Shown here in pieces: positions 55,529 to 60,425 of a DNA stretch of 64,000 nucleotides. Source of the DNA: Microbacterium sp. STN6 (GTDB taxonomy: Bacteria; Actinomycetota; Actinomycetes; Actinomycetales; Microbacteriaceae); NCBI RefSeq assembly GCF_026410545.1, contig NZ_JAPMIT010000004.1, positions 62,001 through 126,000 on the forward strand. The letters run 5' to 3'. Both the position numbers and the translations under genes were made by a program. The notes below the pieces were generated by a model, which saw only the letters and a list, made by a program, of their open reading frames with translations, searched no databases and was not told the DNA's origin. The first letter of the stretch is position 1, and each line of letters begins with the position of its first letter.

Positions 55529-56920
55529 TCAGGCCGGCAGCCCGAGGTGCACGACCTTGGTCGTCGTCATCTCGTCGAGCAGCCGCGGGCCGTAGCCGTA
55601 GCCGGAACCGCTGTCGCGCCGGGGCTCTGCCGAACCGCCCGGTGCGCCGCCGAATACGTCGTTGATCTTCACCGTGCCGAACGGCAGCTCGGAAGCGGCC
55701 CTCTGCGCGTTCTCCATCGACGAGGTCAGCACGGTCGCGGCGAGCCCGTAGCGGTCGCGCCCGGCGAGCTCGAGCGCCTCGTCGAAGCCGCCGACGACCT
55801 GAACGGGCGCGACCGGCCCGAACGTCTCCTCTGTCATGACCGGCATGCCGGGCGCGCACTCCGTGAGCACGGTCGCGGGGTAGTACGAGCCTGCGCCGTC
55901 GGGAACGTAGGCCCCGGCGCGTACCTGAGCGCCCTGGCCGACGGATGCGCTCACCTGGCGATGCACCGCCTCACGAAGGCGGCGATCGACGAGCGGTCCA
56001 AGCTCTCCCGTCTCTTCGCGGTGCCGGGCCTCGGCGACGAGGGCGAGCACGAATGGGTCGGCCACGCGCTCGTGCACGTAGATGCGCTCCACCGAGGTAC
56101 ACAGCTGGCCCGCGTTGGCGAAGGCGCCGAGCGCGGCCTGCTCTGCGGCCCAGACGGGATCGACGCCCTGGTCGACGACGAGCGGATCGTTGCCGCCGTT
56201 CTCGCGGATCACGTGGGCCCCGGTCAGCGCGGCCGCCCGAGCGATGCGTTCGCCGGTTCGGGTGGAGCCGACGTGCGCGATCACATCGACGCCCGGCTGT
56301 TCGACGAGCAGGTTGCCGACGGCCGAGCCGCCCATCGCCGTCTGCACCACGTCGGCGGGGAACGCCTCGGCGAGCACCTCGCCGAGCAGGCTGCCGAGGT
56401 GCGGGCACCGCTCGCTCGGCTTGTGGATGACGGTGTTGCCGCTCACGACGGCCGCGCCGATGAGCCCGGCGGCCACGGCGACCGGGTCGTTCCACGGGGT
56501 GAGCACGAGTACCACGCCACGCGGCTCCGGCACGCTGTAGTCGGTGGCGTCGACCGGGCCCCGCAGGCTCTCGCCTCGGTGCAGCGGGCCGAGCTCGGCG
56601 TACTGCAGCAGGGTCTGCACCGCGGCGTTCACGCCCTCGAGCGCCTGATCCTGCGGGCGGCCCGTCTCGCGCGTGTTCATGCGGGCCAAGGCGGGCGCGC
56701 GGTCGGCCACGAGCGAGGCCGCGTGGCGCAGCATGGCGCCGCGTTCGCCGGGCGGCACTCGCGACCACCACGCGAACGCGTCGCTCGCGCGGCCGACCAG
56801 GGGCGGAATGTCCAGCGGCGTGAGGCTCTCGATCGCGCCGACGGGGCTGCCGTCGCGCGGATCGACGATCGTCATGGGCGCGTCGTGCGCGTCCGTCCCC
56901 ATCAGATGGATGAGCGACAT
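55529..56920 (-). CDS. Aldehyde dehydrogenase family protein
   Basis: 463 residues, slightly short for the family. Catalytic Cys is in FANAGQLCTSVERIYVHE; the substrate/NAD loop VLVLTPWNDPVAVA and the late motif TEETFGPVAPV are present. The general-base motif usually ELGG is ENGG here (VIRENGGNDPLVVD), keeping Glu. Substrates of this succinate-semialdehyde-like branch are short aldehydes. It is upstream of hldE on the same strand, separated by 145 bases of repeat. Confidence 0.9.
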   Translation of the reverse strand: MSLIHLMGTDAHDAPMTIVDPRDGSPVGAIESLTPLDIPPLVGRASDAFAWWSRVPPGERGAMLRHAASLVADRAPALARMNTRETGRPQDQALEGVNAAVQTLLQYAELGPLHRGESLRGPVDATDYSVPEPRGVVLVLTPWNDPVAVAAGLIGAAVVSGNTVIHKPSERCPHLGSLLGEVLAEAFPADVVQTAMGGSAVGNLLVEQPGVDVIAHVGSTRTGERIARAAALTGAHVIRENGGNDPLVVDQGVDPVWAAEQAALGAFANAGQLCTSVERIYVHERVADPFVLALVAEARHREETGELGPLVDRRLREAVHRQVSASVGQGAQVRAGAYVPDGAGSYYPATVLTECAPGMPVMTEETFGPVAPVQVVGGFDEALELAGRDRYGLAATVLTSSMENAQRAASELPFGTVKINDVFGGAPGGSAEPRRDSGSGYGYGPRLLDEMTTTKVVHLGLPA

Positions 56921-57037: not shown

Positions 57038-57124
57038 GAACGAAAACGACGGTGTTGCTGTCAAAAACGGCGGAAGACTGCGCGGCTGCGCACATCCGCT
57101 CACCTTTCTCCGTCGTTTTCGTTC
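57038..57124. repeat. 87-bp element A, copy 1
   Basis: Perfect 15-bp terminal arms GAACGAAAACGACGG and CCGTCGTTTTCGTTC enclose 57 bases including CTGCGCGGCTGCGCACATCC. It lies upstream of the membrane-protein gene at 57203. Exact 87-bp copies follow at 58259 and 59286. Confidence 0.92.
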
Positions 57125-57202
57125 GTGGCCCTAGACTGTGCCGGTGTCACGGATGCCGGCGGTTGCGCGGGCAGCCGAATGGAACCTGCGCGGAGGCTGA
57201 AC

Positions 57203-58186
57203 TTGACGGAATCGATTGAGACGCAGGCGCCGCAGGCGGCGGGCGACGGAGACGGTGGCGCGGCCCCGCGTCGGCTGAGCGCGTGGGCCTGGCTCGGCAT
57301 CGGCGCGGCGTCTGCGGTCGTCGGGCTGCTGCCATGGCTGGTCACCGGGATGCGGCTGCCGATCCAGAATCTGTGGAACACCGATCCGCTCGCTGCGCCA
57401 GCGCCCCTCGTGCTGCTGCCGTTCAGCCAGTACGAGATCACCCTCATCGCAGCCCTCGTCGTGGTGGGCGCGGCGGCGGCAGGGATCGTCGCACGGGCGA
57501 CGCGGGCGCGGCAGGGCAGGCGAAGCGTCGTCGCGATTCTGTGCGGCGTGCTCGCGGTGCAGTTGTTCGCGCTGGCACAGACCGCGACCGTTGTTGCGAG
57601 CGGGCTGCAGAACCGTGTCGAGTCGGCGCTGTATCTCGTGGTGATCGTCGTCGGTATCGTTCTGGCAATCGCGGTCGGGGCGTTGGTGCTCTGGCTGGTG
57701 GCGCGTGCACCGCGGGCGGGCGCGCTGGTGGGCATGAGCCTGGTGTCGGTTCTCGTGGCGCCGTGGCTGAGCGGGTTCATCTCGCCGATCAACGCGATCC
57801 CTGGAACGGGGCTTGCGGGTGTGACCTGGCTGGTCGACCTGGTGCGATTCGTGCCGGCGATTCTCGTCGGGGCGGCCATCGCGTGGTGCGGCATCGGACG
57901 CATCGGGCGCGTGATCGCCGCCGTTGTTGCCCTGCTGCTTCTGTGGACCGGTCCCGCCCTACTCACCGGCGCCAGCGCGGCGGTCGGCAGCAGGGTGCTC
58001 GGCCCGCGCCCTGCCGACATGGTCGACTTCGCGTCGCGCGTCATCGTGCTTGCGCTGACGACGCCGTCGGTTGCGCTCCCGCCGATCCTCGTCGCCGTGG
58101 CCGTGGCGGCGATCGGCCTCGTCGTGCGCCGCGAGGCCCGCAGACGACGCGCCCTCGCCGACGACCGCGCGGCGACCGTGCGCTGA
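57203..58186 (+). CDS. Multi-pass membrane protein of unknown function
   Basis: 327 residues from TTG 57203, chosen for the GGAGG at 57192-57196; ATG 57179 would add 8 residues but lacks a ribosome site. About eight hydrophobic helices, the first LGIGAASAVVGLLPWLVTG and the last LPPILVAVAVAAIGLVV. No family with known function is recognised. The stop lies inside the first unit of a 21-bp repeat array. The flanking copies of element A frame this gene. Confidence 0.7.
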   Translation: MTESIETQAPQAAGDGDGGAAPRRLSAWAWLGIGAASAVVGLLPWLVTGMRLPIQNLWNTDPLAAPAPLVLLPFSQYEITLIAALVVVGAAAAGIVARATRARQGRRSVVAILCGVLAVQLFALAQTATVVASGLQNRVESALYLVVIVVGIVLAIAVGALVLWLVARAPRAGALVGMSLVSVLVAPWLSGFISPINAIPGTGLAGVTWLVDLVRFVPAILVGAAIAWCGIGRIGRVIAAVVALLLLWTGPALLTGASAAVGSRVLGPRPADMVDFASRVIVLALTTPSVALPPILVAVAVAAIGLVVRREARRRRALADDRAATVR

Positions 58187-58255
58187 GCCGGCCGTAGCGC
58201 CACCGAACTGAGCCAGCCGTAGCGCCACGGTGCGCTGAGCCGGCCGTAGCGCCAC
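58183..58255. repeat. Three 21-bp repeats starting at a stop codon
   Basis: CTGAGCCGGCCGTAGCGCCA at 58183 and 58235, and the variant CTGAGCCAGCCGTAGCGCCA at 58208. The first unit contains the TGA stop of the membrane-protein gene. Confidence 0.8.
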
Positions 58256-58258
58256 CGC

Positions 58259-58345
58259 GAACGAAAACGACGGTGTTGCTGTCGAAAACCGTCGAAGACT
58301 GCGCGGCTGCGCACATCCGCTCGCCTTTCTCCGTCGTTTTCGTTC
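58259..58345. repeat. 87-bp element A, copy 2
   Basis: Same 15-bp terminal arms and length as copy 1; the inside differs at only a few bases (GTCGAAAACCGTCGAAGACT). It lies 31 bases upstream of the small membrane-protein gene at 58377. Confidence 0.92.
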
Positions 58346-58376
58346 AGGGCAGGCGGCCCGGGGTACGGTGGGGGCC

Positions 58377-58565
58377 ATGAGCATGGGAATGGGGCCAGGA
58401 AACCCGGGGCCGGTGACGATGGGAAACGGTGGTGGCCCGACGTCAGGCCTGCCGACGCCGCCCCCGCGCGCTCACGGCCGGCTGCGCTGGTTCGGGCTCG
58501 GCATGACGACAGGGGTGGTCGGCACGCTCGTGGTCGTCATCATCGTGGCGACGCTCACGCACTAA
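58377..58565 (+). CDS. Small single-helix membrane protein
   Basis: 62 residues: a Gly/Pro/Met-rich start (MSMGMGPGNPGPVTMGNGGG), a basic Pro-rich hinge and one membrane helix (GMTTGVVGTLVVVIIVATL). Ends near the helix. GGTGGGGG precedes ATG 58377. No family is recognised. Confidence 0.55.
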   Translation: MSMGMGPGNPGPVTMGNGGGPTSGLPTPPPRAHGRLRWFGLGMTTGVVGTLVVVIIVATLTH

Positions 58566-58655
58566 ACGGTTGTCAACGATCGACCAACATCCCTGGGATC
58601 CGTGCTCGAGGGGTTCCGGCTTGCCGATGCCTTCATTGCACCAAACGCAGGCCGG

Positions 58656-59048
58656 CTACGCCAACGCGGCCACTAGGCAGAGCGCGATGAGTACGACCTG
58701 ACCGACCAGTCTCGGCACAAGCGGCACGGCCAGCGACCCGAACCGGTCACGGCGCCGGGCCGCATACGCGTTGGCGGGGAAGACCGCGACCAGGAACACC
58801 GCGAGGCAGATGCCGGCCGCCAGCCGGGTGGGCGGGTACAGAAGCCCGAGACCTCCCGCGATCTCGCACACCCCCGTGAACGCGACGAGAAGCGCGGGCC
58901 GCAACAGGCCATCGAACCGCAGCCGCGGCGGAATCATCGCCGCCATCGTGCGCCGGGACGCGGGCAGGAAGTGCAGCGCGCCCATGCCAATGAACGCGAG
59001 TGCGAGAAGGATGCGCAGCACCAGCGCTGCGATCGCCCAGCCCGTCAC
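58656..59048 (-). CDS. DoxX-family membrane protein
   Basis: 130 residues with four helices: ALVLRILLALAFIGMGALHF, LLVAFTGVCEIAGGLGLLY, LAAGICLAVFLVAVFPANAY and VGQVVLIALCLVAALA. The F-GxxH-F and CEIxGGLGLL patterns are those of DoxX/DoxD-like quinone-linked proteins. GTG 59048 overlaps the stop of the remnant epimerase in GTGA style, so it was a co-translated partner of that gene. Confidence 0.85.
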   Translation of the reverse strand: MTGWAIAALVLRILLALAFIGMGALHFLPASRRTMAAMIPPRLRFDGLLRPALLVAFTGVCEIAGGLGLLYPPTRLAAGICLAVFLVAVFPANAYAARRRDRFGSLAVPLVPRLVGQVVLIALCLVAALA

Positions 59049-59209
59049 AGCGTCGTGAATCCGTCGCGCCAGGTGGGATGCGCCGGCTCCCAGCCCCGCG
59101 ACGCGGCGAGGGCGCTCGAGACCGCGACGACCTCGTGGCCTGTGGCGAGCAGCATCGGCAGAAGCCGCGTTCCGATCACGCCGGTTGCCCCGGCCAGCAG
59201 AACCCGCAT
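59045..59209 (-). pseudogene. Internally deleted NAD-dependent epimerase remnant
   Basis: A 54-codon frame from ATG 59209. It starts as an extended-SDR epimerase (MRVLLAGATGVIGTRLLPML, with GATGVIG as the nucleotide motif, then ATGHEVVAVS) and, from about residue 33, reads like the family's C-terminus (SRGWEPAHPTWRDGFTTL). A normal member has about 300 residues, so some 250 codons are missing without breaking the frame or the coupling to DoxX. The product cannot be an active epimerase but may still be translated. Confidence 0.75.
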
Positions 59210-59285
59210 TTCCGCGCTCCCTTCGCCGCTCCGTCTGACGAATCTACCGGTCGGCGGGTACCGGGTCGTGCTCGCCGGCGTGACC

Positions 59286-59372
59286 GAACGAAAACGACGG
59301 TGTTGCTGTCACGAGCGGCGGAAGCGCGCGCGTCTGCGCACATCCGCTCGCCTTTCTCCGTCGTTTTCGTTC
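59286..59372. repeat. 87-bp element A, copy 3
   Basis: Same perfect 15-bp arms and length as the copies at 57038 and 58259; the inside is more different (CGAGCGGCGGAAGCGCGCGC). It lies between the epimerase remnant and the alcohol dehydrogenase stop. Confidence 0.92.
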
Positions 59373-59402: not shown

Positions 59403-60425
59403 TCACACCGTGAGGAGCACCTTGGTGGCGCGACGCTCGTCCATGGCCCTGTAGCCCTCGGCGGCCTCGTCGAGCGGCAGGGTGAGGTCGAACACGACGC
59501 CGGGGTCGATCTGGTCGGTCATGATCAGCTCGATGAGCTCAGGCAGGAAGCGGCGCACCGGGGCAGGCCCGCCAAGCAGATGCACCTCGGAGAAGAACAG
59601 TTCCTGCCCGTCGAGCTCGACACCGTGCGAGACGCCGACGAACCCGACGTGCCCTCCGGCTCGGGTGGCGCGGATGGCCTGCAGCATCGACTCCTGTGTT
59701 CCGACGGCCTCCACCGTCGAGTGCGCCCCGTAGCCGCCGGTCAGCTCCTTGATCTTCGCGACCCCCTCGTCGCCCCGCTCCTCAACGATGTCGGTCGCGC
59801 CGAACGTCTTCGCCAGAGCCTGGCGGTCGGCGTGACGCGACATTGCGATGATGCGCTCGGCACCGAGCCGCTTCGCCGCGAGGATCGCCAGCAGCCCGAC
59901 GGCACCGTCGCCGACGACCGCGACCGTCTTGCCCGGCCCGGCCTCGGCGGCGACGGCCGCGAACCAGCCCGTGCCCAGCACGTCTGAGGCGGCAAGCAGA
60001 CTGCGCGCCTGCTTCTCGTTCGGCTCGCCCGGCACCGTCACGAGAGTGCCGTCGGCCAGCGGAATGCGCGCGTACTCGGACTGCGTGCCGATGCCACCCA
60101 TCATCACGTTGTGGATGCAGCGGGATTGATACCCCGCCTGGCAGATCTCGCAGGTGTTGTCCGACGCGACGAACGAGCCGACCACGTAGTCGCCCACCCG
60201 AATCTCGTGCACCTCGTCGCCGATCTGCTCGACGACACCGATGTACTCGTGGCCCATCTGCATGGGGCGCTTCACGCGCTCGATGCCGCGGTATGGCCAC
60301 AGGTCAGAACCGCAGATGCATGTCGCCGTGACGCGAATGACGGCATCCGTCGGCTCGACAATGCTCGGATTCTCGACGTTCTCGACGCGAACGTCTCCCG
60401 GTGCGTGCATGACAACGGCTCGCAT
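59403..60425 (-). CDS. Zinc-dependent alcohol dehydrogenase family protein
   Basis: 340 residues, MDR superfamily. Catalytic zinc ligands are in CICGSDLWPYRG and GHEYIGVV; the structural zinc site is abbreviated (CEICQAGYQSRC, three Cys visible). The Rossmann motif is VVGDGAVGLLAILAAKRLGA. It oxidises or reduces an alcohol/aldehyde with NAD(P). It lies 92 bases after the thioredoxin gene and may be in the MerR-controlled transcript; that suggests electrophile defence. Confidence 0.91.
   Translation of the reverse strand: MRAVVMHAPGDVRVENVENPSIVEPTDAVIRVTATCICGSDLWPYRGIERVKRPMQMGHEYIGVVEQIGDEVHEIRVGDYVVGSFVASDNTCEICQAGYQSRCIHNVMMGGIGTQSEYARIPLADGTLVTVPGEPNEKQARSLLAASDVLGTGWFAAVAAEAGPGKTVAVVGDGAVGLLAILAAKRLGAERIIAMSRHADRQALAKTFGATDIVEERGDEGVAKIKELTGGYGAHSTVEAVGTQESMLQAIRATRAGGHVGFVGVSHGVELDGQELFFSEVHLLGGPAPVRRFLPELIELIMTDQIDPGVVFDLTLPLDEAAEGYRAMDERRATKVLLTV

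Follow-up and report, generated by a model that had tools for sequence, protein, structure and literature searches.

What are the three equally long inverted repeats that lie within 2.4 kb of one another in the window (the whole analysed stretch of 64,000 nucleotides, G000:C4:62001-126000), and what brought them there? The initial annotation had described three 87-bp copies with identical ends and partly diverged centres. All three were recovered exactly as described (Table 1), each bounded by inverted arms that match perfectly over 15 bp (GAACGAAAACGACGG / CCGTCGTTTTCGTTC), and the divergence of their centres was borne out, identity to copy 1 across the 87 bp being 94% for copy 2 and 91% for copy 3. 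An arm scan allowing up to three mismatches returned 11 matches in the window, whereas shuffled sequence gave 2.06 on average and 7 at most; six of the 11 were perfect, and all six lay within the three copies. At window positions 58172-58257, immediately before copy 2, a unit of ~26 bp is present three times in tandem.

Table 1. Positions of the repeats, of the candidate partner gene and of spacers shared between two genomes; genes named as neighbours of the window copies are predictions of a home-made gene finder.
Feature	Position	Length	Arms	Setting
Element copy 1 (window)	57038..57124	87 bp	57038-57052, 57110-57124	between divergent predicted genes 55529-56920(-) and 57203-58186(+)
Element copy 2 (window)	58259..58345	87 bp	58259-58273, 58331-58345	downstream of predicted gene 57203-58186(+)
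Element copy 3 (window)	59286..59372	87 bp	59286-59300, 59358-59372	30 bp from predicted gene 59403-60410(-)
Candidate partner gene	G000 C1:467893-468906			outside the window; AbiEi-like winged helix plus Vsr/EDxHD-type nuclease domain
G222 copy with third ACGACGGA motif	G222:C1:185031-185101			a further example is L221
Shared spacer, G000 with G298	470979/471199 with 1791248
Shared spacer, G000 with G298	478608/478801 with 1784253
Shared spacer, G000 with G298	480531 with 1782564

A dispersed family of inverted repeats

Local tandem duplication confined to this locus does not account for the trio: elsewhere in the genome, at C1:389076-389162 on a different contig, there is a fourth close copy (86%), and the genome-wide search for arms at fixed separation that the annotation had proposed returned 36 matching places. 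With up to two mismatches, the 14-bp arm was found at 58 and 66 places on the two strands of G000; the reversed pattern occurred at 10 and 7. Among arm pairs in the fetched G000 stretches, 36 of 39 had a span of 77 bp (87 bp once the outer arms are included) when any span from 30 to 140 bp was permitted. The derived pattern, ACGAMGG N55-59 CCKTCGT, matched 36 places in G000, 26 in G001, 20 in G298, 8 in G087, 2 in G207, 29 in G222 and 46 in G047; across these seven genomes the reversed pattern gave 0-2 matches and a shifted spacing 1-3 (0 and 1, respectively, in G000).

For the wider distribution we used R1, a sequence-only profile of fixed length whose element counts were taken under stricter filters. 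It was positive in 41 of 398 family genomes and, with these strict filters, in 25 of the 85 Microbacteriaceae genera sampled, to which an arm-derived pattern search added three more genera. In a collection-wide scan with a free gap of 43-73, most matches fell in Compostimonas suwonensis, with others in Microbacteriaceae FW021_bin.57 and a Herbiconiux MAG, and the spans in these three were almost all 77-78; matches in unrelated taxa had scattered spans and are probably due to chance. The arm-pair finder applied to copies from R1-positive genomes was biased towards spans near 77, whereas the collection-wide and G000 span scans left spans free. In the copies fetched from R1-positive genomes the arms were lineage-specific and the same at both ends (AAAACGACGG, AATTCGACGG, AAAACGAAGG, AAAACGCAGG and others). 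On viral contigs, 11 stretches fitted a pattern, none of which was confirmed. A universal element at ahcY was likewise rejected, R1-negative genera holding other, mostly terminator-like inverted repeats in the ahcY flanks.

Several variants were observed along the way. In genus g11 (G222), where copies form short arrays, ACGACGGA is found a third time within the copy, close to the dyad and ~30 bp from one arm (Table 1). A different, 84-bp inverted repeat in G016 (L266:3981-4064) has an inner GACACGCC motif that also occurs inside the FW021 copies. At L183:1499-1585, L191 and L194, an element-like arm pair with the lineage's own arm variant lies inside a coding sequence, purK-like by eye.

The gene that accompanies the repeats

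We asked which gene carries ends that match the repeats. The RAYT or transposase gene that the annotation had envisaged was not the one found: the Y1 transposase domain PF01797 was present in 3 of 398 genomes (G011, G250, G281) and in none of the 41 element-positive ones. The gene with matching ends encodes instead a winged-helix, Vsr-like nuclease protein. PADLOC AbiEi models matched all four proteins compared at E 2e-4 or better (best E 4e-6 for the G000 protein). Under curated Pfam cut-offs the G000 protein scored 18.1 of 25 for AbiEi_4 and 18.6 of 20.6 for DUF559, and the AbiEi-type winged helix stayed below its cut-off in three of the four proteins and exceeded it in the G047 paralogue. 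A profile of the protein family matched the PDB entries 3hrl (endonuclease-like, E 1.7e-6) and 3r3p (a mobile intron protein, E 1.8e-4), the latter of which we take to be I-Bth0305I. Residues E201, Q218, D228, E238 and D254 were invariant in 12 sequences, so that both marks of an EDxHD / Vsr-like nuclease are present, the fold by these profile matches and the conserved acidic residues in E201, D228, E238 and D254. The protein alignment held 28 of 30 members (G300 looks misread), and a fold prediction from single sequence was set aside at a mean pLDDT of 33. Judged from these similarities, the partner protein probably both binds and cuts DNA. In Compostimonas, the nuclease reading frame (L075:871-1893, minus strand) enters the adjoining element and stops inside it.

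Homologues of the G000 protein were found in 281 of 398 family genomes at E 0.001, and 21 of them scored above 160 bits, a cut that sits at the gap from 167.9 to 139.8 bits and was chosen after the list had been seen. R1 was positive in 16 of the 21 genomes with such a close homologue and in 25 of the 377 others (p 1e-13; 14 of 19, p 6e-12, when the window's own genus was left out), statistics to be read with the reservation that the genomes are inter-related and that R1 was trained partly on them. These 25 element-positive genomes thus lack a close homologue at the 160-bit cut.

The gene itself was usually bracketed by inverted repeats of 83-92 bp (loci L280-L309). By score, flanking repeats were found on both sides at 16 of 30 gene loci and on any side at 24 of 30; the corresponding values for ahcY control loci were 2 of 30 (the element-positive G000 and G016) and 7 of 30. 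Identical 9-mer inverted arms on both sides were present at 16 of 30 gene loci and at 0 of 29 ahcY loci, and the 14 gene loci without them in this strict test included those of G000, G001 and G047. In G000 only one element adjoins the gene (467624-467710), the next lying past another gene. Upstream and downstream arms of different genera matched in 53 of 838 pairs, partly because genera share arms. Distant paralogues at L303, L304, L307, L308 and L309 were also bracketed by paired repeats, with other arms and spacings, and are perhaps separate systems. Flanking pairs were seen at none of three homologues on Tsukamurella plasmids; a 74-bp inverted repeat lies upstream of the AbiEi-domain gene at one of the three (L311:1797-1870).

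Further evidence for the pairing came from five R1-negative genomes with a close homologue (G043, G385, G059, G062 and G254). Each had, adjoining the gene, 83-92-bp inverted repeats whose arms were foreign to the R1 profile. The pattern predicted from gene-side arms of R1-negative genomes (AAASBSAGG N57 CCTSVSTTT) was run on 16 genomes and revealed dispersed families in 5 of 5: 12 places in G043, 8 in G059, 4 in G385, 32 in G254 and 7 in G062, with further matches in G094 (3), G294 (13) and G022 (1). These counts include gene-side copies (two each in G043, G059, G385, G254 and G294, one in G094), and the single G022 copy (G022:C160:443-517) is apparently coding, purK-like by eye. The pattern was absent from eight control genomes without a close homologue (G005 carries weaker paralogues, the other seven no homologue match), and its reversed form from all 16 genomes. 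Among the places listed, G043 had only AAAGCGAGG, G059 only AAACTGAGG and the others AAACGCAGG, as beside their genes. At the level of sequence, then, presence of the gene predicts the elements, and the arm sequence is genome-specific, matching the sites beside the gene. We conclude that the gene-repeat pairing is well supported, and consider it probable (about 60%) that the window copies are dispersed non-autonomous miniature elements whose partner is this AbiEi-like winged-helix, Vsr/EDxHD-type nuclease protein.

Centres, flanks and competing readings

The element, almost invariably 87 bp long, is conserved in its ends and its spacing rather than in its centre. In G000 the centres (positions 26-62) had a median pairwise identity of 38%. 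A/T content was high at positions 6-9, 18-20, 28-30 and 38-40 and at the mirror positions, and low at the dyad. Its period was 10.2 in G000, with a power of 26.9 against 2.9 for the largest of 2000 shuffles (36 copies), and 10.1 in a named set of 63 copies holding at least one probable chance match (L142), with a power of 83.8 against a shuffle maximum of 1.8. With the analysis limited to positions 26-62 in 29 copies whose centres are unrelated, the power was 24.5 against 3.6. G298, G222, G047, G254 and G043 had periods of 9.9-10.5 and the phase of G000; ~10-bp phasing symmetric about the dyad was thus seen in seven sample sets, while five G001 copies gave a weak signal (20.7 vs 20.1). The samples comprised 18 of 20 places in G298, 21 of 29 in G222, 24 of 32 in G254, 12 of 12 in G043 and, among the places listed, 19 of 46 in G047, and omitted coding-looking, off-length and near-identical copies. 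Because A/T is phased symmetrically about the dyad, the element suggests a double-stranded site that would be bent on a protein and read at its ends.

Are the copies mobile? In the G000 quartet (the window trio plus the copy elsewhere) the centres had a mean pairwise identity of 0.80, and the 40-bp flanks 0.38 and 0.36. Similarly, seven copies forming a subfamily in G254 had centres 82-95% identical to a reference copy and flanks that, a few bases out, were no more alike than by chance (comparison of 12 chosen stretches, with 14 of 32 copies). Shared centres within unrelated flanks indicate that units were copied whole, so that the proposal of a unit moved as a whole stands for this minority of copies; most centres are unrelated, and simple recent transposition is therefore no explanation for them. 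Neither excision products nor empty sites were seen.

The positions of the copies add a second aspect. The 38 G000 copies lay in 10 divergent, 17 tandem and 11 convergent spacers, as defined by the home-made gene finder, and in 3 of the 38 the overlap with a predicted gene exceeded 15 nt. In L045, L069 and L108, from different genera, an identical neighbour pair brackets copies with unrelated centres, and L051 and L096 represent another such spacer. (The gene names manA, whiB and ahcY are presumptive assignments from sequence.) One syntenic block of G000 and G298 has copies in three spacers with both neighbours orthologous (Table 1); a fourth shared spacer adjoins the nuclease gene, and one more has one neighbour in common. 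Despite the agreeing positions, the arms are ACGACGG in G000 and ACGAAGG in G298. Unrelated centres at sites shared across genera, with a concerted change of arms, would be more readily expected from selection for a host role than from recent movement.

One competing explanation is that of chromosome architecture, with the elements as selected docking sites for a DNA-bending protein and the nuclease-like protein as a domesticated, non-mobile binder. Gyrase and nucleoid proteins bend DNA at docking sites. The shared intergenic positions with their concerted arms, the indifference to gene orientation, the A/T phased as in wrapped DNA and the uneven density (22 arm pairs in the C1:130-510k region) would all fit. 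However, whole units were copied into unrelated flanks, presence is patchy (41 of 398 genomes) and copy number varies from 2 to 46, and we regard this explanation as unlikely. Gyrase as the wrapping protein is disfavoured by the genome-specific arms.

We hold it to be more doubtful still that the AbiEi-like protein serves chiefly to repress transcription, with the elements as its operators and autoregulation as their origin. AbiEi proteins bind paired inverted repeats, autoregulate and bend DNA (as described in the accessible text of PMC7319586), and in several genomes the element lies just upstream of the gene; but the convergent (11 of 38) and divergent (10 of 38) placements are about those of chance, copies multiply within unrelated flanks, and the AbiEi repeats are 3 bp apart in that account, compared with about 57 bp between the element arms.

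It is very improbable that the copies act as a hairpin in RNA or single-stranded DNA, be it a terminator or a REPIN proper: the inverted repeat is long, FW021 and Herbiconiux copies are strongly palindromic and the mixed named set had some excess of palindromic pairing (p 0.026, 0.0085), but G000 showed no covariation of palindromic pairs (p 0.89, 0.39) and G298, G222 and G047 no excess pairing (p 0.10 to 1.0), the element region had no Rfam match up to E 1, copies sit in divergent spacers and the Y1 transposase is absent (the pairing test omitted copies with similar centres and kept 32 of 36 in G000 and 41 of 63 in the named set). Equally slight are the chances of the MITE that the annotation had offered, the derivative of an unseen transposon of the classical type whose terminal repeats these would be, since its sharp ends and whole-unit copying are set against a length that is fixed although the centre is not needed, genome-specific arms that track the nuclease gene, a search that found no transposase with such ends, and the lack, in agreement with the annotation, of any clear target-site duplication by eye at the copies in the window, G000 and G254.

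Relation to known systems and implications

For the miniature elements with a nuclease partner, the closest parallel is REPIN/RAYT, in which REP doublets are paired with a REP-associated tyrosine transposase and the ends of the GI doublet are 71 bp apart (in the accessible text of PMC3116915). As described there, both have invariant inverted ends at fixed spacing, a less conserved spacer, an extragenic position and many copies, and in both the linked gene is bracketed by identical ends; spread of whole units is common to both as well, with four copies in G000 and seven in G254. The REP-type assignment of the annotation accordingly holds for the architecture, with its inverted ends, constant length, more variable centre and mainly intergenic placement, and fails for the partner, RAYT being absent. 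Unlike in REPIN/RAYT, the partner combines a winged helix with a Vsr-like nuclease and is not an HUH transposase, the element has no compensatory pairing in the four lineages tested (G000, G298, G222 and G047; the mixed named set differs, see above), and the elements show helical phasing of A/T. On the best reading, the family consists of miniature elements resembling REPINs, and their partner is a nuclease with no relation to transposases. Because the system works like REPIN/RAYT but lacks its defining enzyme, we set it apart as new.

Three protein families share single traits with the partner. AbiEi-type antitoxins, which bind two inverted 23-bp repeats 3 bp apart, autoregulate and bend DNA (PMC7319586, in the text accessible), have a related winged-helix domain, paired inverted sites and DNA bending, the last of which is presumed for the element; the partner differs in having a nuclease domain in place of the antitoxin C-terminal domain, and the element from AbiEi operators in having widely separated arms and sites scattered genome-wide. 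Homing endonucleases of the EDxHD / Vsr-related kind, I-Bth0305I among them, dimerise on a target of nearly 60 bp (according to the accessible part of PMC3943268). The partner would share their nuclease fold by the profile matches given above (3r3p and 3hrl), but its gene has dispersed non-autonomous companions. MTES_1575 is a Vsr-type REase domain within giant HEPN-helicase proteins, and the accessible text of PMC3710099 does not mention repeats; the G047 paralogue matched this domain family at E 1e-7, below the family cut-off, and the HEPN-helicase setting sets the two apart.

How might the partner and the elements act together? We infer a mechanism of bending, cleavage and repair copying. 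Two protein subunits would bind the two arms of one double-stranded site, and the protein would bend or wrap the ~60 bp between them; spacing and helically phased A/T would be kept, and sequence would not, because the DNA between the arms is bent or wrapped. Less certainly, the nuclease may nick or cut DNA, after which repair may copy the unit elsewhere, and the gene-side sites may let the gene control its own expression. Somewhat short of even odds, and hence tentatively, we propose a class of miniature mobile DNA spread by a winged-helix, Vsr-like nuclease rather than by a transposase, in which the 87-bp unit would be bent into a nearly one-turn wrap and read only at its ends, and in which each gene lineage would have its own arm code, the code and dozens of sites changing together.

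The repeats and their matching gene appear to represent a new type of small bacterial mobile DNA; no paper describing such a nuclease-repeat pairing was found in the literature searched, which mostly excluded subscription papers. Many bacterial repeat families are without a known enzyme, the CGTC-tagged repeats being an example in the accessible text of PMC3733652. With a nuclease family that has matching repeats of its own, there would be a second route alongside RAYT, and a common unexplained annotation, the AbiEi-domain protein with DUF559, becomes a testable system. If the proposal is true, the gene families of G092, G151, G292, G317 and G328, which have other arms and spacings, would add further systems to this class, each independent of the others.
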